Shown: positions 16,501 through 39,341 of the stretch, piece by piece | How positions within the stretch are numbered: the first letter of the stretch is position 1 | Layout of the letters: every line of letters starts with the position of its first letter | Assembly (NCBI GenBank): GCA_021845965.1 | Contig: JAJZUZ010000011.1 | Coordinates: forward strand, 1-39,622 | DNA from: Pseudomonadota bacterium | Lineage (GTDB): Bacteria; Pseudomonadota; Gammaproteobacteria; Burkholderiales; Burkholderiaceae_C | Direction: 5' to 3' | DNA: 39,622 nucleotides | Made by a program: the position numbers and the translations under genes | Notes under the pieces: generated by a model | Told to the model about the DNA's origin: nothing | Database searches by the model: none | What the model saw: only the letters and a program-made list of their open reading frames with translations

Positions 16501-19275
16501 ATGCCGTCTGCCCGCCTGCGCGCCCTCAGCCTCAAGACCCGCGTGGCACTCGCGGTCACCCTCCTGTTCGTCAGCTTCGCCGGCCTGCTGACCTGGCTCA
16601 CCCTGCGCCACATCGACCGCCAGTTCCACGAGACGCTCTATCGCCACCAGTTCGCACTGGCCAGTGCGCTGGCGGACGATATCGACGGCAAGCTGCGCAC
16701 CTATCGCGAGATGGTGATCCGGACAGCACGCCAGCTGCCCCGGCGCGCGCTCGAAGACCCCCAACTCGCGCAGCAATACCTGGGCCAGCAGTCCGCACTG
16801 CTTTCCGTGCTCGACAACGGCCTGTTGCTGGTGTCGGCGCGGGGCATCATCATTGCCGACTCCCGCGGCGCGCCCGGGCTGCGCGGACGGGACGTCTCGC
16901 AGCTCGACGTGTTCCAGGGTGTCAGCGCCAGCCGCGCGCCCTATATTTCCCGGCCCTTCGTCTCGCTGCGCGCCGGTCGCCGTTATGCCCTCAGCATCGG
17001 CGTGCCGATCACCGATGCGCGCGGCGAGATCGTGGGCCGGCTGCACGGCAGCTTCGACCTGCATGGCGAGAATTTCCTGTCCGAACTGGGAGCCTACCGG
17101 GTCGGCCAGACCGGCTACGTGAGCATCATCACCCGCGACCGCCTGCTGATCTCACACCGGCAGATGGAGCGCGTCATGGGCCCCAGCGCCCAGTTGGGGG
17201 AGAACCCGCTGCTGGACCGCGCCATTGCCGGCTTCGAGGGCAGCGGCCGCACCCATAGCTCGCGCGGCATCGATCTGCTGAGCAGCTTCAAGCGGATCGC
17301 CAGCACGGACTGGATCCTCAGCGTGAACATGCCGGTGGCCGAGGCCGAAGCCCCGTTGTACGAGATCCGCCGCAACCTCATCCTCTCCGTCGCCATGCTG
17401 ACCGGGGTGGTACTCGGGCTGGCCTGGCTGTTCATGCACGCTGCGCTCGCCCCGCTGGCCCGGCTCACGGAGCATCTGCGCCGTCTGCCCGCCAAGCACG
17501 GGGCCGAGCGCCAGTTGCCGCTGAAGGCCAGCGGCGAGGTCGCCACCCTGGTGCAGGCCTTCAACGAGCAGGTCGCCGCCATGGACCGGCAGCAGCAGGA
17601 GCTGCGCGACAGCGAGGCGCGCTTTCGCAGCCTGGCGGAGCTGTCGACCGAGTGGTACTGGGAGCAGGACGCCGAATTCCGCTTCACGCTCATGTCCCAG
17701 GGCCTGTACCAGACCGGCGTCGCGGCCCTGGCCGGCAAACGCCGCTGGGAGCTGCCGCTGCTGAACGTGACGCCCGAGCAATGGGCCGAGCACCGCGCCA
17801 CGCTGGAGCGGCACGAACCCTTTCGCAACTTCAGCTACCAGGTGCGTGCCCAGGACGGCACCGTGCGCACCTTCCTCATCAGCGGCACGCCGATCTTCGA
17901 CGAGCAGGGGGTGTTCCGCGGCTACCGCGGCATCGGCTCGGACATCACCGAACGCGAGGCCGACAAGCAGCGCATCGAGTACCTGGCCTACCATGACGCC
18001 CTGACCGGCCTGCCCAACCGCCTGCTGGTGCAGGACCGCTTCGTGCAGGCCATGGCCCAGGCCGACCGCCACCACACCCGCGTCGCGCTGGTCTACCTGG
18101 ACCTGGACAATTTCAAGACCATCAACGACACGCTGGGCCACGCCGCGGGCGATGCCTTCCTCAAGGAGGTGGCGGCCCGCCTGCGCCGCTGCGTGCGCGA
18201 CACCGACACCATCAGCCGCGAGGGCGGCGACGAGTTCCTGCTCGTGCTGTGCGACCTGCCCGACCTGGAGATCGTCTCGGCCATCGTGCTGAAGATCATG
18301 GAACAGCTGCAGCAGCCGTTCCAGCTCGGCACGCACGAGGTCTCCTCCTCGGCCTCGCTCGGGGTGGCCATCGCACCGCAGGACGGCCGCGACTTCGACA
18401 CCCTGCGCAAGAAGGCCGACATGGCCATGTACCGCTCCAAGGAGGCCGGGCGCAACGCCTACCACTTCTTCGATCCCGGCATGGATGCCGAGGCCGGCGA
18501 ACATCTGCTCATGCGCAACGGTTTGCGGCGTGCGCTGGAGCGGCAGGAGTTCGTGCTGCACTACCAGCCGCAGTACGAACTGATCGACGGCCGCCTGATC
18601 GGCATGGAGGCGCTGCTGCGCTGGCAGCACCCCGAGCTTGGCACCGTGCTGCCCGGCCGCTTCATCACCGTGGCCGAGGAGAGCGGCCTCATCGTCCCCA
18701 TGGGCGACTGGGTGCTGCAACAGGCCTGCCGCCAGGCCGCACAGTGGTGGCGCGCCGGGCTGCCGCCCGTCACGGTCTCGGTCAACCTGTCGGCGATCCA
18801 GTTCCGGCGTGGCCAGGTCGAGGAATCGGTCCGGCGCGCCCTCGACGCGTCCGGCCTGGACCCCGCCCTGCTGGAGCTGGAGCTGACGGAATCCATCCTG
18901 ATCCAGAACGCCGAGAGCGTACTGGCCAGCGTGCGCCAGCTCAAGCAGCTGGGCGTGAAGCTGGCCATTGATGACTTCGGCACCGGTTACTCCAGCCTGT
19001 CCTACCTCAAGCGCTTCGACATCGACCGCCTCAAGATCGACCGCAGCTTCGTGCGTGACCTGACCACCGACGCGGACGACGCCGCCATCGTGCGCGCCAT
19101 CGTCCAGATGGCGCACAGCCTGAACCTGCAGACCGTCGCCGAGGGCGTGGAGACCGCCGAGACCGCAACGCGCCTGCGCGAATTCGGCTGTGACCAGGCC
19201 CAGGGCTACCATTACGCCCATCCCCAGCCCGCGCCGGACATCGAGCGCCTGTTGCGCGAAACGCGGCGCACATGA
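16501..19275 (+). CDS. Membrane dCache-PAS-GGDEF-EAL protein (c-di-GMP synthesis/breakdown)
   Basis: A 924-residue bifunctional-looking c-di-GMP enzyme. Layout: TM1 about 14-35; periplasmic dCache-type sensor about 40-285; TM2 about 292-313; HAMP-like linker about 314-366; PAS about 370-485; GGDEF about 490-658; EAL about 668-920. The GGDEF motif is intact at 575-579, with an inhibitory RxxD site at 566-569, so synthesis is possible. The EAL motif (703-705), 'ELTES', 'DDFGTGYSSLSYL' and 'EGVET' are present, so breakdown is also possible. The start is uncertain: ATG 16501 is directly preceded by TATATATATGGG with no ribosome-binding site, so the mRNA might be nearly leaderless. It is a single-gene unit converging with the chemoreceptor gene. 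Confidence 0.93.
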   Translation: MPSARLRALSLKTRVALAVTLLFVSFAGLLTWLTLRHIDRQFHETLYRHQFALASALADDIDGKLRTYREMVIRTARQLPRRALEDPQLAQQYLGQQSALLSVLDNGLLLVSARGIIIADSRGAPGLRGRDVSQLDVFQGVSASRAPYISRPFVSLRAGRRYALSIGVPITDARGEIVGRLHGSFDLHGENFLSELGAYRVGQTGYVSIITRDRLLISHRQMERVMGPSAQLGENPLLDRAIAGFEGSGRTHSSRGIDLLSSFKRIASTDWILSVNMPVAEAEAPLYEIRRNLILSVAMLTGVVLGLAWLFMHAALAPLARLTEHLRRLPAKHGAERQLPLKASGEVATLVQAFNEQVAAMDRQQQELRDSEARFRSLAELSTEWYWEQDAEFRFTLMSQGLYQTGVAALAGKRRWELPLLNVTPEQWAEHRATLERHEPFRNFSYQVRAQDGTVRTFLISGTPIFDEQGVFRGYRGIGSDITEREADKQRIEYLAYHDALTGLPNRLLVQDRFVQAMAQADRHHTRVALVYLDLDNFKTINDTLGHAAGDAFLKEVAARLRRCVRDTDTISREGGDEFLLVLCDLPDLEIVSAIVLKIMEQLQQPFQLGTHEVSSSASLGVAIAPQDGRDFDTLRKKADMAMYRSKEAGRNAYHFFDPGMDAEAGEHLLMRNGLRRALERQEFVLHYQPQYELIDGRLIGMEALLRWQHPELGTVLPGRFITVAEESGLIVPMGDWVLQQACRQAAQWWRAGLPPVTVSVNLSAIQFRRGQVEESVRRALDASGLDPALLELELTESILIQNAESVLASVRQLKQLGVKLAIDDFGTGYSSLSYLKRFDIDRLKIDRSFVRDLTTDADDAAIVRAIVQMAHSLNLQTVAEGVETAETATRLREFGCDQAQGYHYAHPQPAPDIERLLRETRRT

Positions 19276-21163: not shown

Positions 21164-22894
21164 TCAAAAACTCTCCCATTCGCCGCCGGCCTCGGCCGTC
21201 GCCACCGGCGCAGGCTTGCCGGCCGCAGCTGCCGCCAGCTTGGCCACCGGGGCCGGCCGGGCGCTGGCGGGCTTGGACTGGAAGGCCGGTGCCGCCGGGC
21301 GCGGCACCGCAGCCGCGGCGCTCTTGCGCACGGCCTGGCCGCCGTTCTGCTCAAGCTTGAACACCGCCACCGCCTGCACCAGCTCCTGCGCCTGGCCCTT
21401 CAGGCTGGAAGCCGCGGCCGCCATTTCCTCCACCAGCGCGGCGTTCTGCTGCGTGGCCTGGTCCATCTGCACCACCGCCTCGCCCACCTGCGCCACACCG
21501 GCGCTCTGCTCGGCGCTGGCGGCACTGATCTCACCCATGATGTCGGTCACGCGGCGGATGCTGGCCACCACCTCGTTCATGGTGGTGCCGGCCTGGTCCA
21601 CCAGGGCACTGCCCTGTTCCACGCGGGTCACGCTCTCCGTGATGAGCTGCTTGATCTCCTTGGCCGCTTCCGCGCTGCGGCTGGCGAGGTTGCGCACCTC
21701 ACCCGCCACCACCGCAAAACCGCGGCCCTGTTCGCCGGCGCGCGCCGCTTCCACCGCGGCGTTGAGCGCCAGGATGTTGGTCTGGAAGGCAATGCCGTCG
21801 ATGACGTTGATGATGTCGGCGATTCGGCGCGAGCTGTCGTTGATGCCCTTCATGGTGTCCACCACCTGGGCCACGACCTCGCCCCCCTGCACCGCGACGG
21901 TGCTGGCGCTCTGCGCCAGCTGGTTGGCCTGGCGAGCGTTGTCGGCGTTCTGCTTGACGGTCGAACTCAGCTCTTCCATGGAAGCGGCGGTTTCTTCCAG
22001 CGCGCTGGCCTGACTTTCGGTGCGGGCCGAGAGGTCCTGGTTGCCCTGCGCGATCTCGGCGCTGGCAGTGGACACGGACTCGCTGCCCTGGCGCACGGCG
22101 GAGACCACCCCGGCCAGGCTCTCCTGCATCCGCTGCAAGGCCAGCAGCAGCTGGGCCGTCTCACTGTTGCGGCCCTGCACGTCAACACGATGGGTCAGGT
22201 CGCCACCGGCCACCGCCTGGGCCACCTCCACCGCCTGGTTGATGGGCCGGGTGATGGCGCGGATGATCCAGAGCGCCATGGCGACCGCGATGGCAATGGC
22301 CGCCAGGCTGGTGGCCCAGACCGTGATCTGGATGGCCTTGGCCGCCGCACGCGCGCCGTCCACGGAACTCTCGGCGATACGGGTCTGCAATGCGCTCTGA
22401 TCGTCAATGAGCTTGAAATAGGCGAGCTGGACCGGGCGCAAGGATTCATAGAGCGCCAACACAGCCTCGTCCCGCTTGCCCTGCGCCACGAGAGCGAGGA
22501 AGCGATTCAGTTCCTCGCCGTATTTGCCGCGCGCCGTCTGCATGTCGGCCAGCAGGGCGCGCCCTTCCTGAGATTTGATCTGGCGATCCAGCTGGGCGTA
22601 GATCTCTTCGGCCTTCTTGCGCGAGGTCTGGACGCGCTCCTCTTCCGCCTTCACATCACTCGGCCTGTTCATCAGCACCATGTTCCGGGCCGAGCGCGCC
22701 TGCACATTCGCTTCGTCCCGCAGCCGGCCCAGTTCGACCATGGTCGGCATCCGGCGCTGAGCAATATCCTCGACTGCGGCTTCCATGGCGGCATCTTTCA
22801 CCAGGGTGACGCCGCCGAGTACGGTCAACAGCAACACCACCACGCCAAAACCCAGGGCCAGGCGGGTCGAGATTTTCATGTCCTTGAAATTCAT
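21164..22894 (-). CDS. Chemoreceptor 2: 4HB-HAMP methyl-accepting protein with WESF tail
   Basis: A 576-residue classical receptor. TM1 is about 10-33 ('[22 protein letters not shown]'), followed by a four-helix-bundle periplasmic domain (about 34-190, '[35 protein letters not shown]'), TM2 about 193-214, HAMP ('[26 protein letters not shown]'), methylation helices and the conserved tip. The tail is an Ala/Pro linker ending EWESF, as in receptors that tether CheR/CheB. ATG 22894 is chosen for the AGAGGTT site seven bases upstream and for the [12 protein letters not shown] start common in this family. It follows cheW by 35 bases and is the last gene of the RR1-cheW-chemoreceptor unit. Confidence 0.93.
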
Positions 22895-22929: not shown

Positions 22930-23433
22930 TCACTGCACCGCCGAGGCCACCAGGCCCATGTTGGCGCCGCCCATGACCTGCTCGATATCGAGCAGGATCA
23001 GCATGCGCTGCCCCACCGAGCCGATGGCCAGCACACCGCGCGCATCGATGGCGCCCGAGAACTCCGGCACCGGGCGCAGCTGTTCGGGCGCGAGCGTGAT
23101 GACGTCGGACACGGCATCCACCACCATGCCGATCACCTGCTGGCCGATGTTGAGCACGATGACCACGGTGAAGTTGTCATACCTCACCTCGTCCATGCGG
23201 AACTTGATGCGCATGTCGATGATGGGCACGATGACCCCGCGCAGGTTCACCACACCCAGGATGAAGTCCGGGGCGTTGGCCATGCGCGTGGGCGGCTCGT
23301 AGGAGCGGATCTCCTGCACGCGCAGGATGTCGATGCCGTATTCCTCCTGGCCAAGCTTGAAGGCAAGGAATTCACGGATGGCGGTCGGCGTGCCAGCGAC
23401 GGCGTGACCGGGGGCGTTTGTATGGGTGGTCAT
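22930..23433 (-). CDS. cheW: Chemotaxis coupling protein CheW
   Basis: A 167-residue CheW with the usual two-lobe SH3-like pattern: '[55 protein letters not shown]' and '[11 protein letters not shown]' are diagnostic. It links receptors to CheA. The ATG at 23433 is preceded by GGAG, and the residues before it in the open frame are low-complexity. It is 13 bases from the RR1 stop and 35 bases from chemoreceptor 2, so all three are one transcript. No CheA lies in the window, so the signalling complex must use a kinase encoded elsewhere. Confidence 0.95.
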
Positions 23434-23446
23434 GGAAGGCTCCGGA

Positions 23447-23845
23447 TCAGCTGTGAAATAGCGGTGAGAGGGGGTTGTGCGGAGGGCGGGCGTGGGTGCG
23501 CACGGCATCCAGGAGTTGCTCGAACTCGCGCGACTTGTCGTAAAAGGCATCGGCCCCGGCCTTGAGACAGCGGGCGCGGCTGAACTGGCTGGCGTCGTTG
23601 CTCAGCATGAAGATGCGGGCGGCGGGCGCCGCTTTCCTGAGCGCACCCAGCACCTGCACCGCATTGCCATCTGGCAGATGCTGGTCCAGGATGAGCAGGG
23701 AAGGCGCCGCGCCTTGGATGCGGTCCATCAGCTGGGATAGGGTGGCCACGGCCTCGACCTCGCCCACGCCCGGCACCGCGCGCAGGTGGTCCGCCAGGCG
23801 TTCGCGTATCAGTTCGGAATCGTCAACAACAAGCGTTTTCAACAT
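23447..23845 (-). CDS. Single-domain response regulator RR1 (CheY-like)
   Basis: A 132-residue receiver domain with no output domain. The acidic pocket is D8/D9 ('LVVDDS'), the phospho-acceptor is Asp54 ('LLILDQHLPDG') and the lysine is in 'DAFYDKS'. It is clearly a paralogue of RR2, with shared 'VEAVATLSQ', 'LPDGNA', 'SRARCLK' and 'GADAF' blocks. The start at 23845 fits the family N terminus MLKTLVVDDSELIRERL. It leads the RR1-cheW-chemoreceptor 2 operon, and its upstream block is shared with RR2. It may relay phosphate within a sensory circuit or take part in chemotaxis adaptation; the motor-binding face of CheY is not obvious. Confidence 0.9.
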   Translation of the reverse strand: MLKTLVVDDSELIRERLADHLRAVPGVGEVEAVATLSQLMDRIQGAAPSLLILDQHLPDGNAVQVLGALRKAAPAARIFMLSNDASQFSRARCLKAGADAFYDKSREFEQLLDAVRTHARPPHNPLSPLFHS

Positions 23846-23922
23846 GACGCCATCGTCGCGCACTGTTACCCGCCAGGGTATCGTCCGGTTCGGATTCCGG
23901 TGTCCGAATATCCTGTCGCGGG

Positions 23923-23938
23923 GTAGGAATCGTCTGAC
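23923..23938. promoter_or_regulatory. GTAGGA-N4-TCCTAC-type dyad upstream of RR1 (copy C)
   Basis: GTAGGA-ATCG-TCTGAC: a perfect left arm and an imperfect right arm. It starts 78 bases before the RR1 start codon, the same distance as in the other two copies (77). Between it and the gene, an element on the minus strand (TTCGGACA, then GATACC after 18 bases) lines up with the matching blocks of copies A and B and could be the promoter. Confidence 0.6.
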
Positions 23939-24062
23939 ACAGGTCCGTGCGAATTGCACGGTCGCCCCTTTCTTTCGCAGGGACCTCAAGCCGAGAGCCC
24001 CTGCGCCGTCGCGATGGGGACTGTCAGATCCGGTGGGAGCCCGCGCGATACGGGGATGCCAA

Positions 24063-25607
24063 CTACTTGAAGGCCTTGACGGCCTGCACCAGCTGCTCGG
24101 CCTGTTCGCTCAGGCTGTCAGCCGCGGCGGCGCTTTCCTCGACCAGCGCGGCGTTCTGCTGCGTGGTCTGGTCCAGCAGGGTGATGGCCTCGCCGACCTG
24201 GGCGACACCGGTGTTCTGCTCCTTGCTGGCGATCGTGATCTGGCTCATGAGCTCGGTCACCCTGCGGATGCTGGCCACGACCTCTTCCATCGTCTGACCG
24301 GCCTGGTCCACCTGCTGCGTCCCCCGCTCCACCCGCGCCACGCTGTCGGTGATGAGTTCCTTGATCTCCCTGGCCGCCCCGGCGCTGCGACCGGCCAGCG
24401 AGCGCACCTCCCCCGCCACCACGGCAAAGCCGCGCCCCTGCTCGCCGGCACGGGCGGCCTCCACCGCAGCATTGAGCGCCAGGATATTGGTCTGGAAGGC
24501 GATGCCATCGATCACGCTGATGATGTCGCTGATGCGGCGTGAAGACTCGTTGATGTCCTTCATGGTGCTCACCACCTGCCCCACCATCTCTCCGCCGCGC
24601 ACCGCCACCGCACTGGCCTGCTGTGCAAGGGTGTTGCCCTGCTGCGCGTTGTCGGCGTTCTGCCGCACGGTGGAACTGAATTGCTCCATCGACGCCGCGG
24701 TCTGCTCCAGTGCGCTGGCCTGGCTCTCGGTGCGTGCGCTCAAGTCCAGGTTGCCGCCGGCCATCTGTTCGCTGGCCGAAGCCACGACCTCGGAACGGCC
24801 GGCCACGTCATCCACGAGGGCGCGCAGGTTGAGGCCGGACTGGTTGACCGCGCGCAGCAGCATGCCGATCTCGTCGACACGATGCAGGTCGATGTGGTCG
24901 GCCGCCTGGCCGCTGGCCACTTTCTGCGCCTGCTGCAGGATGCGCTCCAGCGGCCTGACGATCTGCTGCTGCAACATGAGACAGACCAGCACAGCAGCAA
25001 GGCCCAGACCCGCAGCGGTAATGCCCAGCGCCGCGCCGCTCACGCCAGCGAACACGGCCGCCAGCAGCCCGATCAGCACCGCCAGGAAGATGGGCAGACG
25101 GATGCGCCAGCGCAGTGGCAGCACCTGGAACAGGGACGTCCACGCCATGAGGCCGGTACGTACGATGATGCCCTTGCGGAAGGCCAGACCCTGGGCACGT
25201 CCCTCGCGAAAACGCCGGTACAACGCTTCGGCCGCCACTACTTCCTCGCGCGTCGGCGTGGTCCGCACCGACATGTAGCCGGTCACCTGCCCGTTGCGCT
25301 CCACCGGCGTGGCGTTGGCACGCACCCAGTAATGGTCACCGTCCTTGCGGCGGTTTTTCACCAGTGCCGTCCAGGAGTGCCCGGCCTTGAGCGTGGCCCA
25401 CATGTCGGCAAAGGCCTCGGACGGCATGTCCGGGTGGCGCACCAGATTGTGAGGCTGGCCGATGATCTCCTCGCGGTCAAAACCGCTGACCGAGACAAAG
25501 GCCTGATTGGCGTAGGTCACATGGCTGCGCGTGTCCGTGGTGGACATGAGGGTGACACCCGCGGGAAACCGGTACTCGCGCTGGGTCACGGGCTGGTTGT
25601 CTCTCAT
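24063..25607 (-). CDS. Chemoreceptor 3: Aer-like PAS energy/redox-taxis receptor
   Basis: A 514-residue receptor without a periplasmic domain. The N-terminal PAS (about 8-115) reads 'SHVTYANQAFVSVSGFDREEIIGQPHNLVRHPDMP', the FAD-binding pattern of Aer. It is followed by 'KNRRKDGDHYWVRANATPV', a membrane anchor (about 160-215), a HAMP-like region and the signalling domain with the conserved tip '[21 protein letters not shown]'. The tail ends 'VKAFK' with no WESF pentapeptide, unlike the two neighbours. Aer-type receptors sense the redox state of the electron transport chain. The ATG at 25607 has AAGG upstream. It is 10 bases after RR2 and so belongs to the RR2 transcript. Confidence 0.92.
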   Translation of the reverse strand: MRDNQPVTQREYRFPAGVTLMSTTDTRSHVTYANQAFVSVSGFDREEIIGQPHNLVRHPDMPSEAFADMWATLKAGHSWTALVKNRRKDGDHYWVRANATPVERNGQVTGYMSVRTTPTREEVVAAEALYRRFREGRAQGLAFRKGIIVRTGLMAWTSLFQVLPLRWRIRLPIFLAVLIGLLAAVFAGVSGAALGITAAGLGLAAVLVCLMLQQQIVRPLERILQQAQKVASGQAADHIDLHRVDEIGMLLRAVNQSGLNLRALVDDVAGRSEVVASASEQMAGGNLDLSARTESQASALEQTAASMEQFSSTVRQNADNAQQGNTLAQQASAVAVRGGEMVGQVVSTMKDINESSRRISDIISVIDGIAFQTNILALNAAVEAARAGEQGRGFAVVAGEVRSLAGRSAGAAREIKELITDSVARVERGTQQVDQAGQTMEEVVASIRRVTELMSQITIASKEQNTGVAQVGEAITLLDQTTQQNAALVEESAAAADSLSEQAEQLVQAVKAFK

Positions 25608-25617
25608 GGTGCGCCTT

Positions 25618-25998
25618 TCAAAGTTCTGGGGAGGGAATCTGCGCCTGGCGCGCACTCCATCGCAGCGCGTCCTCGAATTCTGTGGACTTGTCGAAGAAGG
25701 CGTCGGCGCCGCCCTTGAGGCAGCGCGCGCGGCTGAACTCGCAGGCGTCGTTGCTCAGCATCGCGATGCGCATCTGCGGCGCCATGTTCTTGAACACGCC
25801 CAGCACCTGCAAGGCGTTGCCGTCGGGCAGGTGCAGATCCAGGATCAGCAATGCAGGGGGCGCCTCGTAGACGCGATCCAGGGCCTGCGACAACGTGGCC
25901 ACAGCCTCGACCTCGTCCACGCCTGGCAGGCCTTGCAGGAAGGCGACCAGGCGCTTGCGGATGAGATCGGAATCGTCAACGACCAGCAGCTTTGTCAT
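25618..25998 (-). CDS. Single-domain response regulator RR2 (CheY-like)
   Basis: A 126-residue receiver with D8/D9, phospho-acceptor Asp54 ('LLILDLHLPDG') and a lysine in 'DAFFDKS'. It is the closest relative of RR1 in the window and shares its start (MTKLLVVDDSDLIRKRL). ATG 25998 is chosen because it matches RR1 and because the upstream duplicated block begins there. It leads a two-gene unit with the Aer-like receptor. A decayed copy of its 5' end and upstream region lies at 27423-27694. Confidence 0.9.
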   Translation of the reverse strand: MTKLLVVDDSDLIRKRLVAFLQGLPGVDEVEAVATLSQALDRVYEAPPALLILDLHLPDGNALQVLGVFKNMAPQMRIAMLSNDACEFSRARCLKGGADAFFDKSTEFEDALRWSARQAQIPSPEL

Positions 25999-26090
25999 GC
26001 CGGCATGGTGCCGGCGTGGCTTCTTGCGCACCATCGGACGGTGCCGGTTCTGTTGTCGGGAAAGGCCGGCTCAGGTAAGACAATTCCTAC
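25994..26090 (-). repeat. 97-base upstream block, copy A (RR2)
   Basis: From three bases inside the RR2 gene to the end of the dyad, this block aligns without gaps to 27598-27694, with about 78 of 97 bases equal by hand count. The similarity continues 41 bases further into the coding region (29 of 41). The RR1 upstream region (23843-23938) is a more distant third copy. Confidence 0.8.
26075..26090. promoter_or_regulatory. GTAGGA-N4-TCCTAC-type dyad upstream of RR2 (copy A)
   Basis: GTAAGA-CAAT-TCCTAC: the right arm is perfect and the left arm has one mismatch. It starts 77 bases before the RR2 start. Palindromes of this shape are typical targets of NarL/FixJ-type response regulators, for example the RcsB and EvgA sites; such a regulator (27721-28350) is encoded nearby. 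Confidence 0.6.
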
Positions 26091-26265
26091 AACAAAGGCA
26101 TGAAAGACCAACTCGAAACGCGCGACGTGGCAGGATGCCTCGAGGCACCAGCCACGCTCCGAGCCGCGTCAGGAGCAAACCGCAGGACGGCAGGACTGCG
26201 CCTCGCGCCATCGCCAGTCCAGCAGGGATATGGAGAGTGGAAGCCCGCGCCGGAGGGCGTGCGTC

Positions 26266-27387
26266 CTATCGGGCGCAGACGAGCGAGGCGTTGTGGAACT
26301 CGGGCATCCCGACAACGGAATCAGTGCCGATCTCGCCCAGCGAAAGTGCACCGACCACCTCGGCCCCGCCAAACGCGGTCGCAAGCTCGCTGAGCTCGAC
26401 CCCCGCATCGGCGCCGAAATGCATGCGCCGGCCCGCGCAATAGAACACGGTCAGGGGCCCGGGCGAGGCGCCAAGTCGTGCCGCCATGCGGTTCACGCAC
26501 TTGCTGTCGCCGAGATGAGGGGCGTGCAGGAGCCTAAGGTAGGAATTGGGAGGAATCTCGCCGATGCAGTAGATCGCCCCGTCCGGGGTCACACCCACTG
26601 GAATTCTGACCAGCACATCGTGGGTTGAAATGAGACCCAGCGGATAGTGCACTGCGTGTTGGTAGAAATTCTCAGCGGTCAGCTCCACCCCGAATTCGGC
26701 CCGGAGCAGTTCCTGGTAGACCGTCATCGCCGGTCTGCCATCGATCTGTTCGATGCGATTGGCCAGTGTGGACGTTGCACGAAAGATGGGATTGGAAACC
26801 GGGTAGCAATGTTCGACGGCAACCTGAACCGTGCTCGGGATGAGCATGGCGATGCAACCGCCAGCGACCTTGCGGTCCTGGTCAAACAGACACGGCATCG
26901 GCTGAAAGGTCTCGCTTCCCGCGTTGATCCCGGCATACCGAACATGGTTGCCTGCAAGCTTGAAGATGGTATTCAGCAGCGTTCCGATATTGGGCAAGAG
27001 ACCGTCGAAGACCAGAAAAAGCGTGGACGGGCTGTCTGCCGCGCTGCCAGCGCACTCTTGTTCAACGAATCGGCTGATGCACGCCATGCCTGCGTCTGCA
27101 CTGACGTCCAGTCGATCCACCAGCAGCCATGGGGGACAGGTTTCCATTCGCAACAAGAGCACACCCGACGTATGAAATGCGCTCCGGGCGATCAGCGCAG
27201 GAAAGACGGCCCCGACCAGGGGAATTCCATGCGCGCGGGCCGCAGCCTGCAACAGGCCGACCTGGGCATCCTCTGCCTTCGGCAGCAGGGCCAGCAAGCC
27301 GCCCTCCGGGAATGCCCGTTTCCAGTCCGCAAAGAGCGCGTTCAAGCGCTCGGGACTGATCTGGGGAAGGTGAAGACTCTGAAACAT
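26266..27387 (-). CDS. FIST domain sensory protein
   Basis: A 373-residue soluble protein with FIST N and FIST C domains, proposed to bind small ligands such as amino acids and to act with signal-transduction proteins. The N half holds 'LLALLPKAEDAQVGLLQAAARAHGIPLVGAVFP'; the middle has 'LFLVFDGLLPNIGTLLNTIF' and 'YAGINAGSETFQPMPCLFDQDRKVAGGCIAML'; the C domain includes 'IEQIDGRPAMTVYQELL' and ends 'GALSLGEIGTDSVVGMPEFHNASLVCAR'. ATG 27387 is preferred, though no good ribosome-binding site is present; upstream GTG codons are possible. Codon use is less GC-biased than in the flanking genes, which suggests later gain. It lies between the kinase/regulator pair and the RR2 unit, and its leader holds a decayed regulator copy. 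Confidence 0.85.
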   Translation of the reverse strand: MFQSLHLPQISPERLNALFADWKRAFPEGGLLALLPKAEDAQVGLLQAAARAHGIPLVGAVFPALIARSAFHTSGVLLLRMETCPPWLLVDRLDVSADAGMACISRFVEQECAGSAADSPSTLFLVFDGLLPNIGTLLNTIFKLAGNHVRYAGINAGSETFQPMPCLFDQDRKVAGGCIAMLIPSTVQVAVEHCYPVSNPIFRATSTLANRIEQIDGRPAMTVYQELLRAEFGVELTAENFYQHAVHYPLGLISTHDVLVRIPVGVTPDGAIYCIGEIPPNSYLRLLHAPHLGDSKCVNRMAARLGASPGPLTVFYCAGRRMHFGADAGVELSELATAFGGAEVVGALSLGEIGTDSVVGMPEFHNASLVCAR

Positions 27388-27422
27388 GCGGGGATGGCTG
27401 GGCGCAGGGCTTTGATATTCTG

Positions 27423-27602
27423 TCACGCAGCCCACGTGCAGGGGTCGCGACGTACCGGGGCGAGGCCTGTTCTGCCGGCGGCGACGGTCCATCTCTTCGA
27501 CGGCAACGCCACCGGCGGCCGCACCGTCGCAACCCGCCGCAGGCAGTGGACACCACGCCTGCGGATGCAACTGGATTCGTCAGCGACCAACGATTCTGTC
27601 AT
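27423..27602 (-). pseudogene. Decayed 5' fragment of a CheY-like response regulator
   Basis: From an ATG at 27602 the frame reads MTESLVADESSCIRRR, against MTKLLVVDDSDLIRKR in RR2; the DNA aligns without gaps for the first 46 coding bases (27557-27602). Beyond that the likeness fades, and the frame stops after 59 codons at 27423, before any phospho-acceptor site. The match continues upstream through the whole RR2 promoter block, so this is a remnant of a full promoter-plus-gene duplication. Whether the 59-residue peptide is still made is unknown. Confidence 0.7.
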
Positions 27603-27694
27603 GCCGGCATGGTGCCGTCATCCCCCCCTGGGTACCATCGGACGGTGCCGGTTCTGCTGTCGGAATCGGCCGGTCAGGGTAGGACGATTCCTAC
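27598..27694 (-). repeat. 97-base upstream block, copy B (FIST leader)
   Basis: Ungapped partner of 25994-26090 (about 80% equal by hand count). The first 20 bases and the stretch around ACCATCGGACGGTGCCGGTT are identical. It has kept its dyad better than its coding part, which suggests that the regulatory part is still selected. Confidence 0.8.
27679..27694. promoter_or_regulatory. Perfect GTAGGA-N4-TCCTAC dyad (copy B)
   Basis: GTAGGA-CGAT-TCCTAC, the only fully symmetric copy. It starts 77 bases before the ATG of the decayed regulator, as in copies A and C, and 27 bases after the stop of the NarL-type regulator gene. It probably drives the FIST gene. Confidence 0.6.
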
Positions 27695-27720
27695 CTCGGC
27701 TCGGCGCATTGCCCGGCGAC

Positions 27721-28350
27721 TTAGATCGGGCCGTGCTCCAGGGCGTAGCGCACCAGCTCGGCCGTGCTGCCCAGGTTGAGCTTCTCCATGAGGCGTGTCT
27801 TGTGCGTGCTCACGGTCTTGTTGCTGATGCACAGCTCGGCCGCAATCTCGTTCACGCCCTTGCCGGCCACCAGTAGGCGGAACACCTCGCGCTCGCGCTC
27901 GGACAAGGCGGCGTGGGCCGGCTTGTCGCCGGCCAGGGATTGCTCGAAGACGAGTTTCTCGGCCAGCTCCGGCACCAGGTAGCGGCCACCGGCGGCGACC
28001 TTGCGGATCGCTGCCAGCAGCACGTCCATCTCGCTGTCCTTGGTGACGTAGCCGCTGGCACCGGCCTTGAGCACGCGCGCGGCCACCGGCGCTTCGTTGT
28101 GCATGCTCAGCACCAGCACGGGCAGGGCCGGCCAGTGCGACTTGATGCGCGCAATCAGGTCCGGTCCGCTCAGGCCCGGCATGTTGATGTCCAGCAGCAG
28201 CAGATCGGGCAGCTCGCGGCGCAGGCGCTCCAGCAGCTGGCCGCCGTCGACCGCCTCGCCCACGACCTGCAGGTCCGGGTTGAGGGAAAACAGCTGCTTG
28301 AGACCGCTGCGCACGATGGCGTGGTCGTCGGCCAGCATCAGACGGATCAT
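27721..28350 (-). CDS. NarL/FixJ family response regulator
   Basis: A 209-residue DNA-binding regulator. The receiver domain has D8/D9 ('LADDH'), phospho-acceptor Asp54 ('LLLLDINMPG') and the lysine in 'GYVTKDS'. The LuxR-type helix-turn-helix is at about 149-190 ('LSEREREVFRLLVAGKGVNEIAAEL', 'ISNKTVSTHKTRLMEKL'). The start at 28350 overlaps the stop of the upstream kinase (ATGA), so they form a cognate pair. This class binds short palindromes, and the GTAGGA-N4-TCCTAC dyads in the same island are natural candidates for its sites (inference). Confidence 0.94.
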   Translation of the reverse strand: MIRLMLADDHAIVRSGLKQLFSLNPDLQVVGEAVDGGQLLERLRRELPDLLLLDINMPGLSGPDLIARIKSHWPALPVLVLSMHNEAPVAARVLKAGASGYVTKDSEMDVLLAAIRKVAAGGRYLVPELAEKLVFEQSLAGDKPAHAALSEREREVFRLLVAGKGVNEIAAELCISNKTVSTHKTRLMEKLNLGSTAELVRYALEHGPI

Positions 28351-29816
28351 GCTTGCTCCTGCCAATGGCTGGCGTAGTGTAGGGGGATGGTGGCGCGGAT
28401 GCAGGTGCCCTGGCCGGGTGCGCTCTGCACGTCCAGCGTGCCGCCCAGGGCCATGGCGCGTTCCTGCATGCCGAGCAGGCCGAAGGATTTGCCGCGCGCA
28501 GCCTGCGTGGTGTCAAAGCCGCGCCCGTCGTCCTGCACCTGCAGCCGCAACGCATCGTCGTCCGGCTGGTGATGCAGGCTCACCTGCACCTGGCGGGCCT
28601 GCGCGTAGCGCGTGACATTGGTCAAGGACTCCTGCACGATGCGAAACAGGCCGATGGCCCGGTCCTCGGGCAGGTCGATGCTGCCGCCCACCGCGTCGAA
28701 GTCGCAGGCGATGCCGGTGTTGCGGCGGAACTCGCCGCACAGCCATTCGATGGCCGGGACCAGGCCCATGTCCAGCGCGGCCGGACGCAGGTTGGTGGCC
28801 ACATTGCGCACGCCCTGGATGGCGCGGTCCACCAGGCCGCGCATGTCTTGGAACTTGGCCTGCAGCTCCGGCTGCCGGGCGCCATAGCGCATGTCCAGAA
28901 AGGTGAGGTCCATGCGCAGGGCGGTCAGCACCTGGCCCAGCTCATCGTGCACCTCGCGCGCGATGCTCTTGCGTTCATATTCGCGCATGGCCTCGCTCTG
29001 CGCCGCCATGTCACGCAGACGCTGGCGCGAGGCGCGCAGCATTTCCTCCTGCTGCTGGCGTTCGGTCACATCCCGCACCACGGCGATGAGCAGCTCACCG
29101 CGGTTGGTCTGCAGGGTACCCACGCTGACCTCGCCGGCGAACTCGCTTCCGTCCTTGCGCAGGCAGCGGGTCTGCGATCCGAAGCTCGAACCGCGCGCCT
29201 GGCCGAGAACGGCGGCGCGGCGCTCCTGGTGTTGCCCGCGCACATCCGGCACCAGCAGGGCTTCGGTCGCCAGCCCCAGCAGCTCGGCCCGCGAATAGCC
29301 GAACAGCTCCTGCGCACGCGCGTTGGCCTGCACGATGCGCCCGTCGCGGTCGCTCAGGATGAAGGCATCGGGCGCGAACTCGATGACGTCGCGGAACATG
29401 CCCTCCAGGCTGCGCCGCTGCGCGTACAGGGCCAGATGCGTCTGCACGCGCGCCAGCAGCACTGCCAGGTTGATCGGCTTGGTGACGAAGTCCGCCGCGC
29501 CCAGGGCCAGGCCACGGGTCTCGGTCTCGCTGTCGTCCAGCGCGCTGATGAAGATGACGGGAATGGCGCGGGTCGCTTCATCGGCCTTGAGGCGGGCGCA
29601 GACCTCGAAGCCATCCACCTCCGGCATCATGGCGTCGAGCAGGACCAGGCTGGGCAGCTCCCGCTGCGCCAGCGCCAGGCCTTCGGCGCCGCCGTAGGCC
29701 GTCAGGACCTGATGGCCGGCGCCTTGCAGCATCAGGCGGATCCAGTCGACCATCTCCGGGGTATCGTCGACCACCAGGATGCGGGCAGGGGCGTTCGACG
29801 CGGGCGTAGGGGTCAT
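28347..29816 (-). CDS. REC-PAS-HisKA_3 sensor histidine kinase (NarX-type)
   Basis: A 489-residue soluble kinase without membrane segments. An N-terminal receiver (about 11-130, Asp61 in 'LVLLDAMMPEVDG') is followed by PAS (about 138-252, 'FAPDAFILSDRDGRIVQANARAQELFGYS'), a coiled linker, the HisKA_3 dimerisation domain with phospho-His290 ('IAREVHDELGQ') and the ATPase domain ('VQESLTNVTRYAQA', 'DDGRGFD', 'SFGLLGMQERAMALGG'). The N-terminal receiver suggests that another kinase or a phosphorelay feeds it. ATG 29816 is chosen because longer starts would run into the divergent copper promoter. It is the first gene of the pair with the NarL-type regulator. Confidence 0.93.
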   Translation of the reverse strand: MTPTPASNAPARILVVDDTPEMVDWIRLMLQGAGHQVLTAYGGAEGLALAQRELPSLVLLDAMMPEVDGFEVCARLKADEATRAIPVIFISALDDSETETRGLALGAADFVTKPINLAVLLARVQTHLALYAQRRSLEGMFRDVIEFAPDAFILSDRDGRIVQANARAQELFGYSRAELLGLATEALLVPDVRGQHQERRAAVLGQARGSSFGSQTRCLRKDGSEFAGEVSVGTLQTNRGELLIAVVRDVTERQQQEEMLRASRQRLRDMAAQSEAMREYERKSIAREVHDELGQVLTALRMDLTFLDMRYGARQPELQAKFQDMRGLVDRAIQGVRNVATNLRPAALDMGLVPAIEWLCGEFRRNTGIACDFDAVGGSIDLPEDRAIGLFRIVQESLTNVTRYAQARQVQVSLHHQPDDDALRLQVQDDGRGFDTTQAARGKSFGLLGMQERAMALGGTLDVQSAPGQGTCIRATIPLHYASHWQEQA

Positions 29817-29839
29817 GGACAGGGCGGGGCAGAATTTCG

Positions 29840-29857
29840 GTTCATTCTTGCATGAAC
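29840..29857. promoter_or_regulatory. Dyad GTTCAT-N6-ATGAAC in the divergent kinase/copper promoter region
   Basis: A perfect 6-bp inverted repeat with a six-base spacer, 35 bases before the first copper-operon start and 24 bases before the kinase start on the other strand. Its place and shape fit an operator for a copper-responsive regulator, but no such regulator is encoded in the window and the sequence is not a recognised consensus. Confidence 0.45.
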
Positions 29858-29891
29858 TGAACTTTCCACGGTTGGCCCTTATCATTCAGGC

Positions 29892-30384: not shown

Positions 30385-30669
30385 ATGAAGAAGCATTTCG
30401 CACTGCTGGTGCTGGCCTGGCCCCTGCTGGGCCTGGCGCAGACCGTGCAGCAGGAGGCGGCCGCCGCCGTGGCGCCGCAGGCGCCGGTGCCGCCCGTACC
30501 CTACCGGCCCATGGCGCCGGCGGGCGCCAGCACCCTGGTCCAGCAACTGGACGACTGGAAGGCCGCCAACGACACGGTCGGCCAGTACCGCGGCCACAGC
30601 GGCATCGTCCGCTGGGAGCGCGCGCAAGAGGCCGAGCGCGCCAAGGCCGCGCAGGAGCCGGCACGATGA
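30385..30669 (+). CDS. Small exported protein of the copper operon
   Basis: A 94-residue protein with a signal peptide (MKKHFALLVLAWPLLGLAQ, cleavage near LAQ-T) and a Pro/Ala-rich then helical mature part ('STLVQQLDDWKAANDTVGQYRGHSGIVRWE'). The start has a GAGGAG site seven bases upstream. It overlaps the TolC-like gene (ATGA). The family is not firmly recognised; short proteins like this often precede the TolC-like component in copper or heavy-metal operons of betaproteobacteria. Confidence 0.7.
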   Translation: MKKHFALLVLAWPLLGLAQTVQQEAAAAVAPQAPVPPVPYRPMAPAGASTLVQQLDDWKAANDTVGQYRGHSGIVRWERAQEAERAKAAQEPAR

Positions 30670-32075
30670 GATACCCTGCCCTGACCCTGCTCGCGGCCGC
30701 CGCGCTGGCCGGCTGCGCCACGCCGGACCCGCAGCGCAATCTGGCCGACCTGCAGCAGCTCAGCAGCGGCCGCACCGCCGGCGTGGCGGTCGATCTGCGC
30801 CGCCCCGACCCGGCCAATGAAGCCGCCGTGAGCGCGCTGCTCCAGCAGCCGCTCAGCGCCGAAAGCGCGGTGCGCATTGCCCTGCTCAACAGCCCGGCCA
30901 TGCAACAGGCGCTGGTGACGCTGGACCTGAGCGACGCCTTGCGCGCACAGGCCGGCCGCGCACCGAACCCGCACTTTTCGATCGCCGACCTCGCCGAGGG
31001 CGACCGACGGGAACTGGAGCGCGCGCTGCGCTTCGACCTGGTCGGCCTGCTCTTCCTGCCCTGGAAGAGCGAATGGCAGAACCGCCAGCACGAGCTGGCC
31101 AAGCTGCAGGCGGCGCAGGACATCGCGCGCCTGGCCACCGACGTGCGCAAGGCCTGGATCAACGCCGTGGCGGCGCAGCAGAGCGCGCAGTACCTGGGTG
31201 ACGTGAAGGAAGCGGCCGAGGCTGGCGCCGAGCTGGCGCGGCGCATGACCCGCGTGGGCAACTTCAGCAAGCTGCAGCAGGCGCGCGAGCAGACCGTGCT
31301 GGCCGATGCCGCCGCCCAGCTCGCGCGTGCGCAGCAGCGCGCCTACAGCGAACGCGAGAAGCTCACGCGCTTGCTCGGCCTGTGGGGCACGCAGGCGCAA
31401 TACACGCTGGCCGAGCGCCTGCCGGATCTGCCGGCTGAGCCCACGGCGCTGAACGATGTCGAGGCACGGGCATTGCGCGAGCGGCTGGACGTGCGCGCCG
31501 CTGTGGCCGAGACCACCTATGTCGCCGATTCCCTGGGCATGGTCAAGACGACGGGCTACCTGGACGGCCTGACGCTGGCCTACAAGCACACCACGACCAC
31601 CGACGGCAGCGGCGCGCGCGACGAGAAGCACGGCTGGGAGCTGGAGCTGCCCCTGCCCCTCTTCGACTGGGGCACGGCGCGCAACGCGCGCGCCGAGGCG
31701 ATCTACCTGCAGTCGGCCGTGCGTGTGCGCCGCGTGGCCGTGCAGGCCCGCAGTGAGGCGCGCGAGGCCTACTATGGCTGGCGCTCCGCCTGGGACCTGG
31801 CGCACCACTACCGCGACGAGGTGCTGCCGCTGCGCCGCTTCATCAGCGACGAGGTGCTGCTGCGCTACAACGGCATGCTCCTGAGTACCTGGGACCTGCT
31901 GGGCGAGATCCGTGCCCAGAGCCTGGCCGTGAACCAGGCGCTGGACGCCCAGCGCGACTTCTGGCTCGCCGACGCCGACCTGCAGCTCACCCTCACCGCG
32001 ACCTCGCCCGGCGCCCTGAGTGCCTTGCGCACCTCATCGGAGCCCGCCGTGACCGCCTCCTCCGGAGGCCATTGA
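30666..32075 (+). CDS. TolC-family outer membrane efflux lipoprotein
   Basis: A 469-residue outer-membrane factor. The lipobox is LAGC, with the acylated Cys at residue 17 (MRYPALTLLAAAALAGC). Two OEP repeats are visible: 'SAESAVRIALLNSPAMQQALVTLDLSDALRAQAGRAPNPHF' starts the first and 'ALRERLDVRAAVAETTYVADSLGMVK' the second. Long helices ('WQNRQHELAKLQAAQDIARLATDVRKAW') form the periplasmic tunnel. No RND pump or adaptor is nearby, so it may dock with a pump encoded elsewhere or have a pump-free role in copper handling. Its stop sits only two bases before the multicopper oxidase start. Confidence 0.9.
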   Translation: MRYPALTLLAAAALAGCATPDPQRNLADLQQLSSGRTAGVAVDLRRPDPANEAAVSALLQQPLSAESAVRIALLNSPAMQQALVTLDLSDALRAQAGRAPNPHFSIADLAEGDRRELERALRFDLVGLLFLPWKSEWQNRQHELAKLQAAQDIARLATDVRKAWINAVAAQQSAQYLGDVKEAAEAGAELARRMTRVGNFSKLQQAREQTVLADAAAQLARAQQRAYSEREKLTRLLGLWGTQAQYTLAERLPDLPAEPTALNDVEARALRERLDVRAAVAETTYVADSLGMVKTTGYLDGLTLAYKHTTTTDGSGARDEKHGWELELPLPLFDWGTARNARAEAIYLQSAVRVRRVAVQARSEAREAYYGWRSAWDLAHHYRDEVLPLRRFISDEVLLRYNGMLLSTWDLLGEIRAQSLAVNQALDAQRDFWLADADLQLTLTATSPGALSALRTSSEPAVTASSGGH

Positions 32076-32077
32076 AC

Positions 32078-33472
32078 ATGGACATGAAACGACGCAATTT
32101 TTTCGCCGGCGCCGCCATGACGGCCGTGGCCGCCGCCTCGGTCAGCAAGGTCGCCCTGGCCGCCCTGCCCGAGCCGGTGCTGATGGACAAGCCCGACACC
32201 GCCCCGCCGCTGCACCCCGAGACCGGCCGGCCCTACAACCCCGTGGTCACGCTCAATGGCTGGACCCTGCCCTGGCGCATGAACAACGGCGTCAAGGAGT
32301 TCCACCTGGTGGCCGAGCCGGTGGTGCGCGAGATCGCGCCCGGCATGAAGGCGCACCTGTGGGGCTACAACGGCCAGAGCCCGGGCCCCACCATCGAGGT
32401 GGTGGAGGGCGACCGCCTGCGCATCTTCGTCACCAACAAGCTGCCCGAGCACACCTCCGTGCACTGGCACGGCCAGCGCCTGCCCAATGGCATGGACGGT
32501 GTCAGCGGCCTGACGCAACCGTGGATCGCCCCGGGCAAGACCATGGTGTACGAGTTCGTGGCGCGGCGCCCCGGCACCTTCATGTACCACCCGCATGCGG
32601 ACGAGATGACGCAGATGGCGATGGGCATGATGGGGATGTGGGTCACGCATCCGAAGGGCAGGCATCCGCTGATCAGCGAGGTGCAGCGCGACTTCTGCTT
32701 CCTGCTCAATGCCTTCGACATCGAGCCCGGCAGCGCCACCCCCAAGGTGAACACCATGCTGGACTTCAATCTGTGGACCTGGAACAGCCGCGCCTTTCCC
32801 GGCATCGACAGCCTGAACGTGCGCAAGGGCGACCGGGTACGCATCCGCGTCGGCAACCTGACCATGACCAACCACCCCATCCACCTGCACGGCCACGAAT
32901 TCGAGGTGACGGGCAGCGACGGCGGCCCCTGGCCGCTGGCCGCGCGCGTGCCGGAAGTGACGACCGATATCGCCGTGGGCCAGATGCGCCAGGTCGAGCT
33001 GATCGCCAACGAGGAGGGTGACTGGGCCTTCCATTGCCACAAGAGCCACCACACCATGAACGCCATGGGCCACGCCGTGCCCACCATGATCGGTGTGGAC
33101 CACCGCGGCCTGGTCGGCAAGATCCAGAAGCTGGTGCCGGACTACATGGTCATGGGCGAGCGCGGCATGGCCGACATGGGCACGATGGAAATGCCCATCC
33201 CCGAAAACACGCTGCCCATGATGACCGGCACCGGCCCCTACGGTTCGCTGGAGATGGGTGGCATGTTCTCGGTGCTCAAGGTGCGCAAGGACCAGAAGCC
33301 GGGCGACTACAGCGACCCGGGCTGGTACGCACAACCGGCCGGCACCCAGGCCTGGGAATGGACCGGCCCGCAGCCGGCCTCTGCCTCGGCGCCCCCCGCG
33401 GCGACCCCCGACAGCGGCCAGCCCGCCGTCGAGCTCAAGGCTGTGAAACCCACCACGCACCAACATGAATGA
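32078..33472 (+). CDS. Tat-exported multicopper oxidase (copper resistance)
   Basis: A 464-residue multicopper oxidase with a twin-arginine signal (KRRNFFAGAA, residues 4-13). The four copper motifs are HWHG (129-132), HPH (171-173), HPIHLHGHEF (266-275) and HCHKSHHTMNAMGH (319-332); Cys320 and the flanking His/Met are type 1 copper ligands. It would oxidise Cu(I) to Cu(II) in the periplasm with O2 as acceptor. A Met-rich stretch ('MTQMAMGMMGM', 177-187) may bind extra Cu(I). ATG 32078 is chosen for the GGAGG site nine bases upstream; a TTG at 32072 overlapping the previous stop is an alternative. Confidence 0.93.
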   Translation: MDMKRRNFFAGAAMTAVAAASVSKVALAALPEPVLMDKPDTAPPLHPETGRPYNPVVTLNGWTLPWRMNNGVKEFHLVAEPVVREIAPGMKAHLWGYNGQSPGPTIEVVEGDRLRIFVTNKLPEHTSVHWHGQRLPNGMDGVSGLTQPWIAPGKTMVYEFVARRPGTFMYHPHADEMTQMAMGMMGMWVTHPKGRHPLISEVQRDFCFLLNAFDIEPGSATPKVNTMLDFNLWTWNSRAFPGIDSLNVRKGDRVRIRVGNLTMTNHPIHLHGHEFEVTGSDGGPWPLAARVPEVTTDIAVGQMRQVELIANEEGDWAFHCHKSHHTMNAMGHAVPTMIGVDHRGLVGKIQKLVPDYMVMGERGMADMGTMEMPIPENTLPMMTGTGPYGSLEMGGMFSVLKVRKDQKPGDYSDPGWYAQPAGTQAWEWTGPQPASASAPPAATPDSGQPAVELKAVKPTTHQHE

Positions 33473-33482
33473 GGACTCCACC

Positions 33483-33950
33483 ATGCATCGACGCCTTTTC
33501 CTGCGCGGCACCACCCTCCTGGCCGCGACAGCCATGGCCGGCCTCGCCACGGCCAGGCCGCAGCGCCCCCTGATTGAAGTCTGGAAGACCGCCAGCTGCG
33601 GCTGCTGCCACGACTGGATCGCCCACCTGCAGGCCAACGGCTTTGCGGTGACGGCCCATGACGTGAGCGACGCCACCAAGCGCGACTACCGCCAGCGCCT
33701 GGGCCTGGCGGACCCGTTCGGCTCCTGCCACACGGCACTGGTCAGCGGCTACGTACTGGAAGGCCACGTGCCGGCGCGCGAGATCCAGCGCCTGCTGCGC
33801 GAGAAACCGCGCGCCCTGGGCCTGGCCGTGCCGGGCATGCCCGTGGGCGCACCCGGCATGGACGGCGCCGTCTATGGCGGCCGCAAGGATCCCTACGACG
33901 TGCTGCTGGTGCAGCGCGACGGCCGTTACACCACTTACCAGTCCTACTGA
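33483..33950 (+). CDS. DUF411 metal-binding protein, Tat-exported
   Basis: A 155-residue DUF411 protein. A twin-arginine-like leader (MHRRLFLRGTTLLAATA) is followed by the family core: 'VWKTASCGCCHDWIAHLQANGF', with the CGCC thioredoxin-like cluster, and 'SCHTALVSGYVLEGHVPAREI', then 'VPGMPVGAPGMDG', rich in Met. These proteins bind copper and are common in copper operons. ATG 33483 is favoured by GAGGA eight bases upstream; ATG 33465 would overlap the oxidase gene. Confidence 0.9.
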   Translation: MHRRLFLRGTTLLAATAMAGLATARPQRPLIEVWKTASCGCCHDWIAHLQANGFAVTAHDVSDATKRDYRQRLGLADPFGSCHTALVSGYVLEGHVPAREIQRLLREKPRALGLAVPGMPVGAPGMDGAVYGGRKDPYDVLLVQRDGRYTTYQSY

Positions 33951-33976
33951 AACCCTGAAACCGAAAGGAAGACACG

Positions 33977-34321
33977 ATGAAAAAACTGGCACCGCTCGCC
34001 CTGGCTTGCGCCACCCTGCTGGCCGCCCCGGCCTGGTCCCAACACACCGGCATGAACCAGCCGGCCGCCCCGGCGGCCGCGGCGGCGGCCGGCGACAACA
34101 TCGCCGAGGGGGTGGTGCGCACGGTGGACAAGACCGCGCGCAAGATCACCATCAAGCACGGCGAGATCAAGAACCTGGACATGATGCCCATGACCATGGT
34201 CTTCCACGTCGCCCAGCCGGCCCTGCTGGACAAGGTCAAGGCCGGCGACAGGATCCGCTTCACCGCCGAGGAGATCAAGGGCACGCTGGTGGTGCAGACG
34301 CTGGAAGTCGTGGGCAAATAG
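33977..34321 (+). CDS. CusF-like periplasmic copper-binding protein
   Basis: A 114-residue exported protein: signal peptide MKKLAPLALACATLLAAPAWS, Ala-rich linker, then the small beta-barrel of CusF. The Cu(I)-site region is 'IKHGEIKNLDMMPMTMVFHV', with His, Met and Met-x-Met; the tryptophan that caps copper in E. coli CusF is replaced here by a Leu/Asp stretch. It may carry Cu(I) to an efflux system. A GGAAG site precedes the start. It is the last gene of the copper operon and converges with the HD-GYP gene 31 bases away. Confidence 0.88.
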   Translation: MKKLAPLALACATLLAAPAWSQHTGMNQPAAPAAAAAAGDNIAEGVVRTVDKTARKITIKHGEIKNLDMMPMTMVFHVAQPALLDKVKAGDRIRFTAEEIKGTLVVQTLEVVGK

Positions 34322-39340: not shown

Positions 39341-39341
39341 G

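Follow-up and report, generated by a model that had tools for sequence, protein, structure and literature searches.

A dyad-bearing promoter module repeated at a chemosensory locus of a Burkholderiales bacterium and its probable link to an AgtR-like two-component system

An inverted repeat stands three times ahead of genes for receiver-only response regulators (RRs) in a 39,622-nucleotide stretch of Burkholderiales DNA (Burkholderiaceae_C; assembly GCA_021845965.1, contig JAJZUZ010000011.1, positions 1 to 39,622), here called the window. The three genes are RR1, RR2 and a decayed third copy, the remnant; RR1 leads an operon with cheW and a chemoreceptor (MCP) gene, and RR2 one with an Aer-like receptor gene. 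The dyad is most probably the operator of the adjacent AgtR-like system, a histidine kinase (HK) followed by a NarL-type regulator, and the module, that is operator plus promoter, would activate the chemosensory operons. The NarL-type protein encoded next to the module is very probably its ligand. It was already the natural candidate in an earlier, sequence-only reading of the locus, and its co-occurrence with the module and the conservation of both now support that proposal.

A search of the window with GTAGGANNNNTCCTAC at up to two mismatches gave three matches, at 23923, 26075 and 27679, where 0.31 are expected from shuffled sequence; one of 100 shuffles gave three. On the minus strand the ATG codons of RR1 (23845), RR2 (25998) and the remnant (27602) follow at distances of 78, 77 and 77 bases. 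The coordinates and distances of the sequence-only reading are thus borne out, above chance. Mismatches of the copies, named A, B and C in this order (Table 1), were scored against GTAGGAN4TCCTAC. Copies A, B and C keep 4, 5 and 6 symmetric pairs of 8, which marks A as the divergent copy, and dyad C lies 26 bp beyond the end of the NarL-type gene. When the copies were aligned without gaps on their ATG codons, the identities were 74/97 for B and C (78/97 in the best window), 49/97 for A and B, and 47/97 for A and C; 2000 random pairs of 97-mers from the window had a mean of 27.5 matches and a maximum of 45. The similarity of about 80% over 97 bases that had been assigned to copies A and B, if these stand for RR1 and RR2, therefore fits the pair of RR2 and the remnant instead. 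A TTCnGACA-type element does lie at the corresponding place in all three copies, as TTCGGACA, TTCCCGACA and TTCCGACA in A, B and C, respectively. The third regulator is decayed, as supposed: its first ten or so codons are RR-like, an unrelated frame follows, and the stop comes after 59 codons.

To study conservation, all 26 genus genomes were searched with R1, a sequence-only model of the roughly 95-bp module built from 16 copies. Matches at an E value of 0.01 or better occurred in 8 of the 26 genomes, exactly those in which a NarL orthologue with 76% identity or more is encoded; of the 17 strong sites, 16 were training members and the sole added site is in G008. None of the 18 genus genomes without the orthologue had a match, and their regulator homologues never exceed 47% (43–45% for the best in G041). 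The orthologues of the seven congeners are 76–81% identical to the window regulator, the kinase gene adjoins the NarL gene in all seven, and in each the end of the NarL match is followed after 30–66 bases by a dyad, with one mismatch to GTAGGRN4YCCTAC in G008. The gene order is HK, NarL and the module, then RR-cheW-MCP, RR-MCP, MCP or RR-Aer-like: RR-cheW-MCP was found in G013, G003, G008 and G014, and RR followed by an Aer-like gene in G024 and G002. Across the 16 aligned copies 23 columns are invariant, and in all 14 copies listed an ATG lies 92–93 bases downstream of where the dyad starts. The sequence-only reading had declared beforehand that dyads not conserved in orthologous regions would speak against it; the dyad is conserved there. 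Its small regulon stands as far as the repeated module before the RR1 and RR2 operons is concerned, and is too narrow for the congener G003, where six module sites were found, two of them far from the regulator. One distant site precedes RR-cheW-MCP and the other an RR gene with an efflux operon of the resistance-nodulation-division (RND) type. A further, weak match in G003 (L027, E 0.008) looks like chance. At the efflux site (L009:6050-11061) the module copy is followed by the RR gene, about 120 bp, and then genes for HlyD/CusB-type and AcrB-type proteins; G008 has a weaker counterpart (L125, 60 bits), with a similar efflux gene about 5 kb away.

The module might simply have been carried along when RR genes were duplicated with their upstream DNA, and have no special function. 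RR1, RR2 and the remnant do look like paralogues, and the B–C identity given above would be expected from such a history. Between genomes, identity is 0.81 in the dyad, 0.57 at +16–40, 0.69 at +40–64, 0.41 at +64–78 and 0.77 at +78–90 downstream of it, against 0.29 in the flank (random 0.26) and 0.55 and 0.43 in RR coding sequence. These figures come from 70 pairs among 13 sites. Copy C, the distant G008 site and the two sites that have lost the RR (G003_3, G003_4) were omitted, and G003_1 with its broken RR was retained. The dyad and the +40–64 and +78–90 segments are thus better conserved than the RR genes themselves. The module also survives decay or loss of the RR (G003_1, G003_3, G003_4 and window copy C), so that mere duplication with the gene is insufficient, and the box recurs before unrelated genes beside NarL homologues. 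We give this explanation very little credence.

The conserved segment downstream of the dyad contains a CYGAT motif. It lies at +52 to +57 from the dyad start (range +49 to +62) in 15 of the 16 genus sites, with 0.4 expected, and at that spacing in 25 of 30 relatives, with 1.0 expected. If the GAT of this motif belongs to a -10 element, the dyad centre would lie near -60 and the 5' untranslated region would be about 25 nt. The -10 core of promoters read by FliA is GCCGATAA. CCGAT is akin to it, and the targets in the window are chemotaxis genes, so that TTCCGACA with CCGAT could be a sigma-28-like chemotaxis promoter, or the dyad the operator of another regulator, with the NarL neighbour a coincidence. 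This is very unlikely, as the module was not found in the 18 congeners without a NarL orthologue, and box and CYGAT occur together beside NarL homologues before other kinds of genes.

The operator reading was followed into distant relatives of the regulator. The set comprised the best 80 relatives among the matches listed, from named genomes and with 50–69% identity; near kin may be missing. Within 450 bp past the NarL match an exact GTAGGRNNNNYCCTAC (GTAGGR-N4-YCCTAC, below called the box) was found in 19 of these best 80, a box with one mismatch in 11 and with two in 9. As controls, 3499 random windows of these loci and 3950 shuffles gave exact boxes in 0.46% and 0.03%, respectively. The 19 include Rhodoferax, Rugamonas, Massilia, Hydrogenophilus and Pseudomonas. 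The genes after the box vary: an RR and then a receptor (L034, L060), an MCP-domain protein, CheY, STAS and CheA (L077), an ABC transporter with SBP_bac_8 (L061), or a GGDEF-EAL protein (L098), the last three according to Pfam. When R1 was run on 300 genomes of the order, the hits beyond the window's own genome numbered five and came from other families. Three of them lie directly after an HK-NarL pair, and one of these is followed by agtA and agtB homologues; L031 and L032, which have no reference-protein match within their 3.1-kb loci, look like chance. Two side observations were made in this set. At L043:9730-16882, in Pseudomonas citri, an AgtR-like gene and the box precede BcsE and cellulose synthase genes (Pfam), an arrangement that suggests box-controlled cellulose. 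Three Paraburkholderia and Cupriavidus homologues with the helix LSAKTIST (L074, L057, L080) have related but different dyads, CTAAGGAAATCCCTAC, GTCAGGATTTTCCTAC and CTCAGGAAATCCTTAC, perhaps a sign of shifted specificity.

Excerpts of a published report describe AgtSR of Pseudomonas aeruginosa as activating agtABCD (PMC12051497). Of 398 genomes of the Pseudomonas otitidis family, 316 had a match, and agtR loci, defined by the order regulator, AgtA homologue and AgtB homologue, were taken from the best 30; these loci are close kin and not independent. The box stands ahead of agtA in all 30 loci, 29 times exactly and once with one mismatch, and no further exact box was found in their 114,801 bp. 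In 26 loci agtA directly follows agtR with the box in between. In the other four, agtR and agtA stand apart with a solute-binding gene between them, and there the box precedes agtA rather than following agtR, which ties it to the known target of the regulator and not to the end of the regulator's own gene. CYGAT was counted at 30 of 30 agt sites, and the count was left unused: it is circular, since the sites had been oriented by requiring GATTT.

The same four loci bear on the idea that the dyad acts as RNA, as the terminator of the NarL operon or a hairpin in the 5' untranslated region. Copy C lies just past the NarL gene, and its six-base arms could pair. However, five terminator-like calls were made in 23400-28400, all of them clear of the dyads, no Rfam match was found in 23000-29000, and the dyad shows neither conserved pairing nor a T-tract. 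A double change was seen at only one of 12 consensus pairs. The inner position is A..C in four and G..T in four of 28 exact boxes, and the half-sites therefore vary independently. Taken together, the last two results are better explained by a DNA site bound by a dimer than by an RNA stem, and where a gene intervenes, the box stays beside agtA, not agtR. An RNA element is extremely improbable.

The NarL-type protein could also bind the dyad and repress the operons. The dyad position alone is compatible with repression, which we nevertheless hold to be highly improbable, because the dyad would lie upstream of the core promoter proposed above and AgtR is described, in the excerpted report, as an activator of agtABCD and cspC (PMC12051497). 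At cspC, AgtR occupies positions -167 to -143 of the promoter, counted from the start codon, and transcription starts at -106 (PMC12051497).

Several results weigh against activation from the dyad by the neighbouring regulator. Dyads with up to two mismatches number 46 in the 3-Mb draft genome and 173 for the reversed control, and at up to one mismatch the reversed control ties or exceeds the pattern in 14 of 14 genomes examined. Since the bare dyad has no genome-wide excess, its position beside NarL and RR genes, not its number, carries the evidence. Copy A combines a poor dyad with being the sole one of the 16 genus sites without CYGAT. A third half-site, TCCTAC with up to one mismatch, occurs at 19 of 46 sites where 8 are expected, a mild enrichment only. 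Within 23400-28400 no sigma-70-like promoter was called, and two of the terminator-like calls, overlapping each other on the opposite strand, fall inside module B. Among the best 80 relatives the best box match has at least three mismatches in 41, including L053, whose sequence stops 23 bases past the regulator gene; the box is thus not universal beside this protein family. G031, with a regulator homologue of 59%, has no R1 match. The box goes with the recognition helix ISNKTVST in 26 of 37 cases and with LSAKTIST in two of 24, and in a relatedness-aware test, powerless with its four pairs (median p 1), this association found no backing. Finally, three exact boxes in Pseudomonas (L115, L119, L120) have no AgtR-like gene within 1.5 kb and a fourth (L118) has only a 34% NarL match nearby; these four are possible further regulon members or chance.

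Table 1. Features of the dyad-bearing modules and the surrounding genes (positions in the window)
Feature	Position	Strand	Remark
Dyad A, GTCAGACGATTCCTAC	23923..23938	-	Two mismatches; weak copy upstream of RR1
Dyad B, GTAGGAATTGTCTTAC	26075..26090	-	One mismatch; upstream of RR2
Dyad C, GTAGGAATCGTCCTAC	27679..27694	-	Exact consensus; between NarL-type gene and RR remnant
Module A, dyad to RR1 ATG	23846..23938	-	R1 match 49 bits; training member; most diverged
Module B, dyad to RR2 ATG	25999..26090	-	R1 match 77.2 bits; training member
Module C, dyad to remnant ATG	27603..27694	-	R1 match 80.4 bits; training member
TTCGGACA of copy A	23901..23908	-	Same place as in the other copies
TTCCCGACA of copy B	26054..26062	-	Same place as in the other copies
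TTCCGACA of copy C	27658..27665	-	Possible third half-site or -35 region
CCGAT of copy B	26033..26037	-	Conserved downstream element
CCGAT of copy C	27637..27641	-	Conserved downstream element; -10-like by position only
Chemoreceptor, 4HB-HAMP-MCP	21164..22894	-	Downstream of cheW
CheW	22930..23433	-	Downstream of RR1
RR1, receiver-only protein	23447..23845	-	Domain search
Aer-like receptor, PAS-HAMP-MCP	24063..25607	-	Downstream of RR2
RR2, receiver-only, no helix-turn-helix (HTH)	25618..25998	-	Best matches are NarL/LuxR-type receivers
FIST_N/FIST_C gene	26266..27387	-	Downstream of copy C; candidate regulon member
Remnant, decayed third receiver gene	27423..27602	-	ATG at 27602 to in-frame stop
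NarL/FixJ-type regulator, REC and GerE/LuxR HTH	27721..28350	-	Pfam; proposed binder
Hybrid histidine kinase, REC-PAS-HisKA_3-HATPase	28347..29885	-	Pfam; proposed cognate kinase

The Pfam matches of the regulator (Response_reg 1.9e-28, GerE 7.5e-21) place it in the NarL/FixJ family. The kinase gene at 28347-29885 would encode its partner and phosphorylate it. A dimer of the phosphorylated regulator would then sit on GTAGGR-N4-YCCTAC about 60 bp upstream of the predicted start point, a further subunit perhaps occupying the degenerate half-site TTCCGACA near -35, and would activate a promoter with CCGAT in its downstream core. The targets would be RR1-cheW-MCP and RR2-Aer-like, each with its own copy of the module. 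The FIST gene, which starts 215 bp past the ATG of the remnant, possibly joins the regulon through copy C; in the other 25 genus genomes its homologues amount to one weak match of 28%. The top matches of RR2 among solved structures are NarL/LuxR-type regulators, and so are the top NCBIfam models of RR1 and RR2, all below cut-off; other receiver families score lower in both comparisons. Tentatively, and with considerable doubt, RR1 and RR2, which resemble NarL-type receivers without the DNA-binding domain, might be phosphorylated by the same kinase and act as a phosphate sink. Each box-driven operon would then make new receptors together with a competitor for its own activator, and the two-component system would limit itself and set the receptor composition of the chemotaxis array. 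If so, the module would be a portable cassette that brings new receptors under the control of this system and, in one congener, an RND efflux operon as well.

Other genes of the window were also noted. Upstream of the HK-NarL pair, at 34353-39490, a gene for an HD-domain response regulator overlaps that of a large hybrid kinase, which carries two receivers and an HPt domain; a similar C-terminus of a large kinase recurs upstream of the HK gene in four congeners, which makes a phosphorelay conceivable. A copper-type cluster at 30660-34321 encodes an outer-membrane efflux protein, a multicopper oxidase, a DUF411 protein and a CusF-like protein (Pfam). The gene for a dCache-GGDEF-EAL protein at 16501-19275 is convergent with that of a third chemoreceptor, and its homologues flank the cluster in G014, G024 and G002.

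The proposed operator would serve a response-regulator subfamily across beta- and gammaproteobacteria and make its regulons predictable from genomes. For Pseudomonas the box is a sequence prediction of AgtR sites, and in the regulator's relatives the same signal stands before quite different genes. At this locus the arrangement suggests that a dedicated two-component system, and not the flagellar cascade alone, would set which chemoreceptors are made.

NarL-type regulators such as ComA of Bacillus and GacA also use palindromic half-sites, whose sequences differ from that of the window. An AgtR motif may be among the contents of a survey of P. aeruginosa regulators by DNA affinity purification sequencing. 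Neither this box nor a NarL-type chemoreceptor regulon of this form was found described in the open-licence literature. A likeness is offered by the acetate system CrbS/CrbR (MxtR/ErdR), a hybrid kinase and response regulator for which an imperfect inverted repeat is needed for activation, according to excerpts of its report (PMC5715377). Its motif was rejected as an equivalent of ours: the sites listed in those excerpts, such as TAAGACCTTGGTCTATC, are unlike GTAGGR (PMC5715377), and the window regulator scores 90 bits with the ErdR model, whose cut-off is 390.

The sequence-only reading held that no system of this form had been described. That was too strong, since AgtSR of P. aeruginosa is a described relative and, in its family, this box is found at the agtA promoters. 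The AgtS/AgtR locus (PA0600-PA0606) shares with the window the NarL/FixJ-type regulator, the kinase gene upstream of it and the box before the target. Relatives in agt context (L061, L066, L067, L070, L087-L089) are 56–60% identical to the window regulator, the context being observed directly for L061, L070 and L089. An operator of the pattern GTAGGR-N4-YCCTAC before the controlled operon is defined here for the AgtR subfamily, and the window fits it: against GTAGGAN4TCCTAC copy C is exact, B has one mismatch and A two. The targets differ: AgtSR serves a GABA/5-aminovalerate transporter and cspC, whereas the window has chemoreceptor genes, and RR, CheW, MCP and FIST genes stand in place of an adjacent agtABCD. 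The sensors differ as well, as AgtS is described in excerpts of its report with two transmembrane regions and an SBP_bac_3 sensor domain (PMC11113362), in contrast to the REC-PAS-HisKA_3 kinase of the window. AgtR proper is therefore not claimed, and the locus is better regarded as a probable AgtR-like system with a chemoreceptor regulon, a set of targets that appears new for a relative of a described system. The order HK, NarL, box and chemosensory genes recurs in Pseudomonas (L058, L077, L079, L090) and Hydrogenophilus (L101). The sets of genes controlled would differ there too: L077 (Pfam) and L101 (by eye) have an MCP-domain protein, CheY, STAS and CheA, and the window has receiver-only RRs, CheW and receptors.

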